Source: a virus. From it: a stretch of 35,619 nucleotides of DNA. A program made the position numbers and the translations under genes. The notes under the pieces are model-generated. The model did not search any database. It was not told the origin of the DNA and saw only the letters and a program-made list of their open reading frames with translations. The stretch is from positions 1 to 35,619 of IMG/VR virus record IMGVR_UViG_3300046167_000371; one strand, 5' to 3'. Shown here in pieces: positions 32,265-35,087 of this stretch; the stretch's first letter is position 1; each line of letters starts with the position of its first letter.

Positions 32265-33243
32265 ACTTGTCTTGCAGGTAGGCGTAGGACACTGGCATGT
32301 AATCGAACTCCCCGGCCTTGCAATCGTGAAGCATCCAGATGCCCGACCACGTTGTATCCGTCCCGGTCTGGCTGGTTAAGTACGATTCCTGGTGGGAGTA
32401 GAATATTCCTGCCATGAGTCCAATTCTACGTCGGCCTAGCACGTCGCTGGTCTCCGCTATGTCGCGAGTCTGTACGTGACCCTGAACGAACGACTGGTGT
32501 CGCTTCGTCAGTCCAGCACGGGCGCTTGAAATACTGCGTCCCATGACCCCGGAAGTTACGTAATGAACGAATGCTATGCCCTCAATCTCGCATGGCGCCA
32601 GGAACGGGAACACCTCCCAGCCTGACCGTTCATAGTCGAGCATGTCTAAGCTGATAACGTCTTCCCATGCCGCGTCAGAATTCACAAAACGTGTCACGCG
32701 GTCTTCGTGGTTTCCTAGCGTGATCACCCTCCGAGGATTCCAGGCTTTTCGCTTCCCCTTCTTTAGTCGCGCTATCTCCTTATCGATTGGCGCATTCAGT
32801 CTGGCCCACGCGTTATTGGCACTCTCAAAATCTGCCATTATGCGCTTGCCCTCCATGTGTTTGCCGCCCTTCTTGTCCCACGAGGACAGCGAGGGAAAGT
32901 CTGCGTGGTCGCCGAGGTGAACGATCACGTCCGGCTTCATCTTCACCGCATATTTCCCGGCCCACTCTAGGTGGTCAGTGTTAACGTCCGGTTTCACCTG
33001 AGTGTCCGGTATCACCATGATGCGCTTACCTCTAACTGAGGAAGGGCGCGTGGTCTCTGTAGATTGGGGGGTGGATTTCATATTGTTCGAGTTCCTCTTC
33101 CGTGAGCGTGTCGATTTCTTTGCTGATTCGGAGATAGTGCTTTCCGATTTTGTCGTGGTTGGCTCGGGCGTACTTGGCTCGCTCGGTGCAGGTTGAGCGG
33201 CCCAGAAGCGCATTGAGTTCAGCGTCGCTTTCAGATCGGCCAT
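32257..33243 (-). CDS. Calcineurin-like metallophosphoesterase
   Basis: The start is placed at ATG 33243 because GGAGG sits 5 bases before it; the product is 328 residues. The first 75 residues are Ser/Thr/Pro-rich and disordered-looking, and are encoded over the end of the upstream gene. The catalytic domain follows: KRIMVIPDTQ (D-x-Gln in place of D-x-His), VHLGDHAD, TLGNHED, a lone His region IAFVHYVTS and GHVQTRD (Gln in place of the last His). These Gln changes are common in the phage version. Members of this fold cleave phosphodiesters or phosphomonoesters with two metal ions, and the substrate here is unknown. A later start at 33081, with GAGG 10 bases upstream, is possible. Confidence 0.85.
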   Translation of the reverse strand: MADLKATLNSMRFWAAQPAPSEPSTPEPTTTKSESTISESAKKSTRSRKRNSNNMKSTPQSTETTRPSSVRGKRIMVIPDTQVKPDVNTDHLEWAGKYAVKMKPDVIVHLGDHADFPSLSSWDKKGGKHMEGKRIMADFESANNAWARLNAPIDKEIARLKKGKRKAWNPRRVITLGNHEDRVTRFVNSDAAWEDVISLDMLDYERSGWEVFPFLAPCEIEGIAFVHYVTSGVMGRSISSARAGLTKRHQSFVQGHVQTRDIAETSDVLGRRRIGLMAGIFYSHQESYLTSQTGTDTTWSGIWMLHDCKAGEFDYMPVSYAYLQDKYG

Positions 33244-33514
33244 AAATTCCTCCATGAATTTCGCGCCACAGCGCTATGTGATTTACAGGGTGACCCTCCA
33301 TCTCCTTGTGTGCCCATGCGGACAGCACGAGACAATTCTTAGGGTCGAATCGGACACTCCAATTGCCTCGGGCAATGAAGTGGGATAGCTGTAGACCTTG
33401 CGGTTTGTCGCTATAGTCTTTGCCGGTAAGCTGGCAAATGAAACCAGCCTTCTTCCGCATGACATCGCTCATGTGCTTATCGGCGGTCAAACGCTTGATG
33501 CCTCTAAAACTCAT
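33032..33514 (-). CDS. NinG/HNH-like nuclease or recombination protein
   Basis: This 160-residue protein resembles the lambda NinG/Rap group. A basic N-terminus (MSFRGIKRLTADKH) leads to CQLTG, with Cys27. Then comes LQLSHFIARGNWSVRFDPKNC, with His45, Arg54, Asn60 and Cys61, followed by AHKEMEGHP with His69 and His75. The order Cys ... His ... Asn-x ... His fits an HNH-like metal site. NinG/Rap proteins process recombination intermediates. The ATG overlaps the previous stop as ATGA and has GAGGTGA upstream. Its last 70 codons are overlapped by the next gene's N-terminus in another frame. Nuclease activity is inferred from family resemblance. Confidence 0.7.
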   Translation of the reverse strand: MSFRGIKRLTADKHMSDVMRKKAGFICQLTGKDYSDKPQGLQLSHFIARGNWSVRFDPKNCLVLSAWAHKEMEGHPVNHIALWREIHGGIYGRSESDAELNALLGRSTCTERAKYARANHDKIGKHYLRISKEIDTLTEEELEQYEIHPPIYRDHAPFLS

Positions 33515-34365
33515 GGCGTCACCTCGTATATTCCGTAGTCGTTAATTCCATTGGGGACATCCACAGTCCTGATCAGCGCATTCTTTTTGAATGGCCGGTA
33601 ATCAACCTTGTGGTGCCACCTGTTAAACCTCCAAGCAACCTTGGCAACGTCTGGGTGCAGGTCAGCGATCATCTGAGACTTGGGTAGAGTTCCCTCACCC
33701 TTGTAGAACTCCTCAGTGTTGCCGCCCTTCATCCGCTGAGTGGTCACCTTGCCGCAGAGGAACGCGTTAAACTGAATCGTGCAAAGCCCGTCCTTCAGGA
33801 CTCTGAGCGATAGGTCTGTGTCCTCGTTGTACCTACCGCGCCACCGATATGGTGCAGAGTTCTCGATGAGCAAGCACGAGTAGATTCTGGTGTTAGCCAC
33901 GAACGGTGGCACCGCATCAGTCCGCTTGCAGAACGAGTAGTAGTTGAGTCCCGAGATCGGGACGTTGGCGTACCTGTCAGTGAAGTCCTCTGCCGCGCAG
34001 AGAGTCTTGCCCGACCGGATGACCCACTTCTTGTTTCTGTTCAGGTAGTGGAACGCGTCGATGTTGTCGTCCATTACCCAGTGGCGTTTGAATCCTTCCT
34101 CGGTAGATAGATCCCATGCGTAGTTGCGTGCCGCACCCGGTCCCTTAGACTTACTGTCACCTAATTCGTCGCAGGTGTCGTAGTCGTCTAGGTAGGACTG
34201 GGGCAGTACGTGTATCGGGCACGAGTACTTGGCCGCGTATAAATCCCTCTCTGCGGCCTCGACGATTAACCGATACGGCACGCCCATGCTATCAAGGGCA
34301 CGGGCTGTCAACATGTTCTCCCACCTACCCTTCGACACAATAAAGATCGGGTAGCGTGGAGTCAC
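33511..34365 (-). CDS. TET/JBP-associated-type glycosyltransferase (TAGT-like)
   Basis: This 284-residue protein matches, as I recall it, the TAGT family: GT-A glycosyltransferases found beside TET/JBP-type oxygenases in phages that make glycosylated bases, and related to the base J glucosyltransferase. It has YPIFIVSKGRW (5-15), PGAARNYAWD (76-85), HWVMDDNIDAFHYLNRN (95-111) with the metal-binding Asp-Asp-Asn, and ANTRIYSCLLI. RWRGRYNEDTDLSLR (174-188) and TTQRMKGGNTEEF follow. The start is GTG 34365: AGGAGG lies 8 bases upstream and GTGA overlaps the previous stop. An ATG at 34413 has no such site. It would transfer a sugar to a modified base. The oxygenase partner, if present, is outside the window. 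Confidence 0.8.
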   Translation of the reverse strand: MTPRYPIFIVSKGRWENMLTARALDSMGVPYRLIVEAAERDLYAAKYSCPIHVLPQSYLDDYDTCDELGDSKSKGPGAARNYAWDLSTEEGFKRHWVMDDNIDAFHYLNRNKKWVIRSGKTLCAAEDFTDRYANVPISGLNYYSFCKRTDAVPPFVANTRIYSCLLIENSAPYRWRGRYNEDTDLSLRVLKDGLCTIQFNAFLCGKVTTQRMKGGNTEEFYKGEGTLPKSQMIADLHPDVAKVAWRFNRWHHKVDYRPFKKNALIRTVDVPNGINDYGIYEVTP

Positions 34366-34604
34366 TTGTAGATCCTCCTCTCTGGGTCTCTGTGCGGGCG
34401 GTGTGGATGCCATGCCGACTTAGTCTTACCTGTCAGCTTCTGACCGATCAGTTCAGCGAAGGCGTCGAGATCATCCTCAGTCTCAAAACGGAAAATGATC
34501 TGCGCGAACGGCTCCTGCTTTTCCTGAACGAACTCCGGCATCTGTTGCCACTCGGACTGGGCCATTGATTTAGAGTCGATGACCACCGACTTCTCGAAGG
34601 CCAT
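34362..34604 (-). CDS. Small conserved protein upstream of the glycosyltransferase
   Basis: This 80-residue protein has a core FAQIIFRFETEDDLDAFAEL (33-52) followed by IGQKLTGKTKSAWHPH and a basic tail. A 'RFE(T/S)xEDLDAFAxLIGQxLTxKTKSxWxP' pattern recurs in small phage proteins I have seen near DNA-modification genes, sometimes attached to ParB-like domains. The pairing with the TAGT-like gene through a GTGA overlap suggests a shared task. The ATG overlaps the previous stop as TAATG. Its function is unknown. Confidence 0.7.
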   Translation of the reverse strand: MAFEKSVVIDSKSMAQSEWQQMPEFVQEKQEPFAQIIFRFETEDDLDAFAELIGQKLTGKTKSAWHPHRPHRDPERRIYK

Positions 34605-34873
34605 TAATGCACCAGCCTTAGATGACCACCCTTGGTCGGTGTGAAGCTAGGCTCAAACTCGATAGGGTGAATCCATATCAGTTTCATCCCGGTGGTAATC
34701 TCCTCCACGTAATCCAGGGCTTCATCTTCCCCGTAACCCTCCTCAGCGAGTCGCATCATTACGACCTCGCTTGAGTAGCAGGCGACTGGGGTGCCATCCT
34801 CTGCGTAGACACAACCCAACAGGGCGTCGTCAAAGTCAGCTAACATTTCGATCTCTCCTATTTCTTCATCCAT
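34604..34873 (-). CDS. Acidic hypothetical protein, 89 residues
   Basis: The start is taken at ATG 34873, which has a strong GGAGGAGGAG about 8 bases upstream; a longer frame to 35017 lacks such a site. The product is very acidic (MDEEIGEIEMLADFDDALLG, then EEGYGEDEALDYVEEITTG) and ends with strands KLIWIHPIEFEPSF and LRLVH. The second half looks like a small alpha/beta fold, with conserved-looking VYAEDGTPVACYSSEVV before it. I do not recognise it. The stop TAA overlaps the next start. Confidence 0.7.
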   Translation of the reverse strand: MDEEIGEIEMLADFDDALLGCVYAEDGTPVACYSSEVVMMRLAEEGYGEDEALDYVEEITTGMKLIWIHPIEFEPSFTPTKGGHLRLVH

Positions 34874-35087
34874 GAAAATTCTCCTCCTCCGGATCAGGCT
34901 CACGGCTCTGCTCCCACTCTGGTGATCCCGGTTGATCCCAAGTGGTGTAGTCCATGCCGCGCTCCGCGATCCACTCCATGCCTTCGGGGCAGACTCTTTC
35001 CGTGGGTAGCTTCTCAATGCGCTTACCCTCCCGTAAGAATCGTTCCGTCTCCTTGGCTATCTGATCTCTAAGGTTATCTTTCTTCAT
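34866..35087 (-). CDS. Hypothetical charged protein, 73 residues
   Basis: This charged helical protein (MKKDNLRDQIAKETERFLRE at the start) continues with ERVCPEGMEWIAERGMDYTT and an acidic tail ending EEENFHG. AGGAAAGAG precedes the ATG. It overlaps the previous gene by 14 bases and the next by 8. No domain is recognised. The strong ribosome-binding site for the next gene lies inside its last codons. Confidence 0.6.
   Translation of the reverse strand: MKKDNLRDQIAKETERFLREGKRIEKLPTERVCPEGMEWIAERGMDYTTWDQPGSPEWEQSREPDPEEENFHG

Follow-up and report, generated by a model that had tools for sequence, protein, structure and literature searches.

Two overlapping genes on the minus strand of a phage DNA fragment most likely work as a two-part DNA glycosyltransferase. 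The fragment, hereafter called the window, is the whole of the 35,619-nt virus record IMGVR_UViG_3300046167_000371 and leaves 1 kb upstream of the gene pair. One gene encodes an enzyme of the TAGT family, and the other a small protein with a domain that we refer to as KTKS. We consider it somewhat better than an even bet that the two form one two-subunit enzyme, which would depend on its KTKS subunit and represent the minimal form of a ParB–TAGT DNA-modification module. Co-expression of the two small genes should then suffice to test DNA glycosylation. One large TAGT clade, furthermore, gains a near-obligate partner domain absent from Pfam as well as a link to ParB. The features are the following:

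33511..34365, minus strand: TAGT (PF20691), predicted GT-A glycosyltransferase, 284 aa from GTG (Pfam, phrog_842, fold of the relative L028, codon positions, motifs)
34362..34604, minus strand: KTKS-domain protein, 80 aa, with the motifs WxxMPEF and KTKSxWxP (adjacency or fusion to TAGT)
34374..34379, minus strand: AGGAGG, likely ribosome-binding site of the TAGT GTG start (read from the sequence)

The gene pair and its enzyme

Phage genes for terminase and portal lie on the left side of the window. A leftward block occupies the right side, with an RNR C-terminal fragment, small genes, the 80-aa gene, TAGT, an HNH/NinG-like gene, a metallophosphoesterase, DUF3310, and the Sak single-strand annealing protein, the direct neighbors of TAGT thus being the KTKS gene and the HNH-like gene. 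The latter (33032-33514, minus strand) overlaps the TAGT stop by ATGA, and an HNH-like frame likewise follows TAGT in the relative L004 (by eye). Elsewhere in the window, a 73-aa protein (34869-35087, minus strand) matches the SutA RNA-polymerase-binding domain in Pfam at 29.7 bits (cut-off 29.3 bits) and might be a phage-encoded RNA-polymerase-binding factor.

An earlier sequence-only reading had placed a TAGT-like enzyme with an intact DDN motif at this position, and this identification was confirmed. The open frame 33511-34413 (minus strand; 300 aa from ATG 34413) matches PF20691 at 161 bits (E 4.8e-47), far above the curated cut-off of 27.5 bits, and phrog_842 matches the same frame at 174 bits. 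Judged from the letters around it, the likelier start is GTG 34365 rather than ATG 34413, owing to the AGGAGG upstream, the overlap with the TGA of the 80-aa gene, and the GTG start of L004 at the same place. The overlap takes the form GTGA, which joins the GTG of TAGT with the TGA of the 80-aa gene. This coupling, also pointed out in the earlier reading, is present in the window, though the junction is kept in only 4 of the 172 non-fused loci; what is conserved is adjacency or fusion. The small gene had been called conserved as well, and its near-obligate partnership with TAGT is new in this analysis.

Compared with L004, L005, and L006, the window TAGT differs by 6.5–12% at codon positions 1 and 2 and by 40–64% at position 3. 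Third-position differences are thus about five to six times those at the first two positions, which marks TAGT as a gene under purifying selection. For the KTKS gene, the one pair with a YN00 estimate (window and L005) gave a dN of 0.097 and a dS of 1.288.

The DDN motif keeps both its aspartates in all 86 distinct rows of the clade and its asparagine in 85 of them. Invariance across the 86 rows extends over D115, D116, N196, E197, D198, R96, N97, G230, G231, H267, and H268. The DD and ED motifs are also retained in the TAGT of phage T6. Going by the predicted fold, and with the usual roles of these two motifs, the enzyme probably uses a metal and a nucleotide sugar.

The enzyme was modeled in the fused relative L028. 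The AlphaFold2 model is confident in the catalytic domain (mean pLDDT 83.9 overall), with the KTKS part and the tail poorly resolved. A structure comparison, serving as a second look at candidates from Foldseek, found the nearest solved folds in ppGalNAc-T2 (Z 13.9, 219 residues, 4.3 Å), cellulose synthase, and hyaluronan synthase, all of them GT-A. Through this relative, the window TAGT is predicted to combine a GT-A fold with the DD and ED motifs by which we define membership.

The KTKS domain and the ParB link

Relatives of the 80-aa protein have in common the core WxxMPEFxQ...xRF...D...F...IGQKLTxKTKSxWxP, and W19, M22, and P23 are invariant in all 61 aligned KTKS sequences. The domain gave no match above cut-off in Pfam. 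It may be the same as phrog_22103 (function unassigned), to which 13 of 25 members gave a match (best E 4.9e-4; E 0.14 for the window). BTG and other weak matches (best E 0.0045 in Pfam and 0.099 in the PDB) lay below the cut-offs, were inconsistent between members, and were put down to chance. The AlphaFold2 model of the domain has a pTM of 0.48 and no confident independent fold; a structure search with it yielded one candidate chain and no match at Z ≥ 2, which is not proof of a new fold.

Among the matches listed, KTKS lies adjacent to TAGT or in the same frame in 91 of the 92 TAGT loci, the window included. These 92 are the loci of L001–L093 with a clade-profile TAGT match, T6 being without one. 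Both parts share one frame in 15 of them, 11 by the automatic count and, in addition, L085, L086, L088, and L091. The lone exception is L092, with a TAGT 22% identical to that of the window. Searching with the KTKS alignment alone led to a TAGT in 98 of 98 new loci among the matches listed (77 viral and 21 on contigs filed under bacterial/archaeal genomes). These counts do not represent independent events, since 31 of the 77 viral loci share their contig with a locus of the first set, whose 80 loci had been retrieved by TAGT similarity. In these KTKS-retrieved loci, TAGT is usually the next gene and sometimes one gene further.

When the gene families around the first 92 loci were clustered, TAGT was counted 92 times and KTKS 62 times (overlapping frames were dropped). 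As the next-commonest family occurs in only 18 loci, KTKS and TAGT appear to pass together, as one cassette, from phage to unrelated phage. Draws on PF20691 that were independent of KTKS (395 and 398 genomes) gave six genomes above the cut-off, two of them centre genomes chosen for KTKS, and 13 further matches below it. The other four genomes are L213 with KTKS and ParB, L205 with ParB and no KTKS, L209 with neither, and L206, which is without KTKS and has a ParB-like neighbor that was recognized by eye and not by the profile. KTKS is therefore the mark of one TAGT clade and not of all TAGTs. In the TAGT tree, built by a quick method from groups pre-sorted by similarity, the KTKS clade is a single branch with an SH-aLRT of 98.

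Several cassettes carry additional genes. A second small KTKS-like gene lies directly 3' of the KTKS–TAGT fusion in Aeh1, POP12, and phiAS5 (L085:5894-6094, L086:5858-6037, L091:3894-4094). Between KTKS and TAGT, L111 (3188-4051) and L150 (3200-4048) have a SAM-methyltransferase-like gene, which perhaps modifies the sugar. Extra sugar enzymes inside the cassette comprise GT4-type enzymes in L155 and L159 (above cut-off) and L178 (below) and a second TAGT in L168. In L156 (1858-3192), one frame joins a GT32-type DXD glycosyltransferase, ParB_N, and KTKS and is followed by TAGT; weaker overlapping Pfam matches there (PF05704, PF12919, PF18152) were set aside in favor of PF04488 and PF02195.

In 17 of the 98 KTKS-retrieved loci, a longer, ParB-like protein (by a ParB profile built here) carries KTKS at its C-terminal end, and in L188 ParB, KTKS, and TAGT occupy one frame. 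The scanned ParB-like proteins match PF02195 (ParB_N) above cut-off in L174, L177, L187, L190, L156, and L165 and below it in L181 and L188; those of L176, L184, and L186 gave no match. Two clades without KTKS also have a ParB gene within 1.5 kb upstream of TAGT (45 of 79 L092-like and 10 of 11 L206-like loci), and none was found near TAGT in the four T6-like loci. Inspection of the other 34 L092-like loci by eye showed another TAGT-like gene upstream in about 14 and a radical-SAM gene in 4, with some loci truncated where the contig stops. Radical-SAM profile matches lie near 17 of the 79 L092-like loci, and Radical_SAM is also found beside TAGT in L092 and L186. Again by eye, L092-like TAGTs stand in tandem arrays (L239, L249, L252, L256) or beside a radical-SAM gene upstream (L228, L232, L260, L267).

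The window itself contains no PF02195 match, fused or adjacent. As the 80 loci of set A gave no ParB match either, the DNA link of the window is one of kinship only. Within a set of 50 records (49 with the cassette, plus that of L092), ParB_N was found in one, the L092 record. Of the ParB-bearing rows in the tree (built by a quick method and rooted at the midpoint), 11 fall into one group, L186 branches off basally in the KTKS clade, and L176 and L188 lie elsewhere, a placement which suggests that the window lineage may have lost ParB.

Proposed mechanism and the choice of acceptor

We propose that TAGT would use its DD and ED motifs to transfer a sugar from a nucleotide sugar to the DNA of the phage itself, and that the KTKS protein would bind TAGT, DNA, or both, and would be needed for acceptor choice or for activity. 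The cassette would then be a minimal descendant of a ParB_N–KTKS–TAGT module whose ParB_N domain makes contact with DNA, and the sugar would shield the DNA from restriction and other nucleases. The acceptor is possibly not hydroxymethylated. In a more specific version, which we rate as less likely than not, the KTKS (ancestrally ParB_N) subunit would present DNA to TAGT, and TAGT would join the sugar directly to a base that carries no modification, or to some other atom of the DNA, independently of any hydroxymethyl group. A single two-gene cassette would then suffice for any phage that takes it up to make its DNA sugar-coated. Such chemistry would open a new route to DNA of this kind and could serve as a candidate DNA-labelling tool.

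The sequence-only reading had the phage glycosylate hydroxymethylated bases. The support for this is partial and covers the DNA-directed glycosyltransferase, in view of the TAGT family, the T6 member, the GT-A fold, and the ParB_N partners in relatives. That TAGT glucosylates a 5-hydroxymethyl pyrimidine, supplied by a TET/JBP oxygenase or by a hydroxymethylase working at the nucleotide level, with the gene lying elsewhere in the phage genome, is in our estimate unlikely. The family name and the T6 precedent speak for it: the T6 TAGT adjoins a gene annotated as thymidylate synthase, read as hydroxymethylase gene 42, and thymidylate-synthase-like genes lie near TAGT in all four T6-like loci. 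The flanks of the KTKS loci, however, are without such a gene in 79 of 80 and 98 of 98 cases.

The proposed search for TET/JBP or hydroxymethylase genes returned nothing in the 35.6-kb window (PF12851, for which the search had no positive control, and PF00303), and PF00145 was likewise without a match there. The same three families gave no match on the 20.4-kb contig of the relative L006, which extends about 18 kb beyond the cassette on the upstream side and carries genes other than those of the window. The forecast oxygenase or hydroxymethylase partner was thus not seen in the window or on this contig, and the oxygenase in particular found no backing among the relatives, though for this fragment a partner could lie elsewhere. 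The 50 records, besides eight complete genomes, are mostly fragments or partial genomes, two 47-kb Vibrio records included, so that a single absence weighs little. TET/JBP (PF12851) turned up in none of these 50 records and in none of 398 genomes, in a search that had no positive control of any kind. A C5-methylase (PF00145) was found in 1 of 50 records, at 28 bits in 1.124.O (from a partly different list of 50). DNA methylases are annotated in the Vibrio phages 1.076.O and 1.124.O.

In favor of a hydroxymethyl acceptor, PF00303 thymidylate-synthase-like genes occur in all eight complete phages above 100 kb. With one 41-kb contig, these make up 9 of the 50 records; the two 47-kb Vibrio records have none. 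Asn-type enzymes take dUMP as substrate and Asp-type enzymes dCMP. By eye, all nine records hold an Asn-type protein, with the ordinary thymidylate-synthase motif in phiAS5, Aeh1, henriette, and POP12 and a synthase-like one in PTm1, which argues against this alternative. The Asn-type proteins of Kuja, the contig of L049, and phages 65 and avDM6 are atypical and could make hmdU, and any Asn-type protein may still act as a dUMP hydroxymethylase. PTm1 has a second, weak PF00303 match that shares the Asp of T6 gp42 at this position (by eye). As all eight complete large relatives carry a thymidylate-synthase-like gene, an hmdU-type route is possible for them.

On the other side of the balance, genes 42 and 56 are tabulated as absent from Aeh1 and 65 (PMC2993671, Table 4). 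The same article states that T4 relatives without the whole T4 modification gene network are probably without major dCMP modifications, some being restriction-sensitive, and going by its Table 4, Aeh1 and 65 would seem to be among them.

Quite unlikely, in our view, is an acceptor other than DNA, be it a protein of the phage or its host or a glycan on the cell surface or the virion. Protein O-glycosyltransferases and polysaccharide synthases come closest among the solved folds, though a GT-A fold is no guide to the acceptor, and the cassette lies among unrelated neighbors. ParB_N fusions and neighbors in relatives, together with the DNA-acting T6 homolog, point away from such acceptors. Finally, transfer of a second sugar onto already glucosylated hydroxymethylcytosine, as in T6 and as in the PHROG and RefSeq label beta-glucosyl-HMC-alpha-glucosyltransferase, is highly improbable, given that the alpha-glucosyltransferase PF11440 was found in 0 of 49 non-T6 records, the eight complete genomes among them (T6 control 859 bits), and that the T6 TAGT falls outside the KTKS clade in the tree, its branch being very long and its placement unsure.

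Comparison with known systems

The T6 enzyme (YP_010067197.1) has a PF20691 match (38 bits) and the DD and ED motifs in common with the window TAGT. In T6, the hydroxymethylase gene is adjacent and all 4 T6-like loci are without KTKS or ParB nearby, whereas the window lacks the adjacent dCMP hydroxymethylase of the T-even beta-alpha glucosyltransferase. In a 2026 paper (PMC13216743), the T6 TAGT was modeled as a GT-A enzyme, assigned as a DNA sugar transferase, and said to act after the alpha-glucosyltransferase; the paper also reports a solitary TAGT in 288 of 753 phage genomes and calls TAGT function yet to be defined.

A second parallel is found in the phage enzyme CmoX, which is accompanied by ParBc proteins (PMC12783734). 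The CmoX neighborhoods and ParB–methyltransferase fusions described there have a counterpart in some relatives of the cassette, where a ParB_N domain stands before the enzyme. The cassette differs in that its enzyme is a glycosyltransferase, its linker is KTKS, and the window is without ParB. Measured against the ParB_N–TAGT DNA-modification module, the window has KTKS beside TAGT and no ParB_N. In the portions of the openly licensed literature that our searches covered, we saw no link between ParB and TAGT and no published name for the KTKS domain; biochemistry on any KTKS–TAGT was not found.

The closest known counterparts are Aeh1ORF087c (Aeh1p093) of the Aeromonas phage Aeh1 and the related proteins of phages 65 and phiAS5, which belong to the same clade and have TAGT parts 56–65% identical to that of the window. 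Aeh1ORF087c has been listed, citing Iyer 2013, as a glucosyl transferase presumably modifying DNA, the base being given as unknown (PMC8056088), and by its locus we matched it to a KTKS–TAGT fusion. Aeh1 and phiAS5, like POP12, differ from the window by their extra KTKS-like gene downstream. In Aeh1, 65, and phiAS5, KTKS is fused N-terminally to TAGT, whereas the window encodes the same two parts as two genes.
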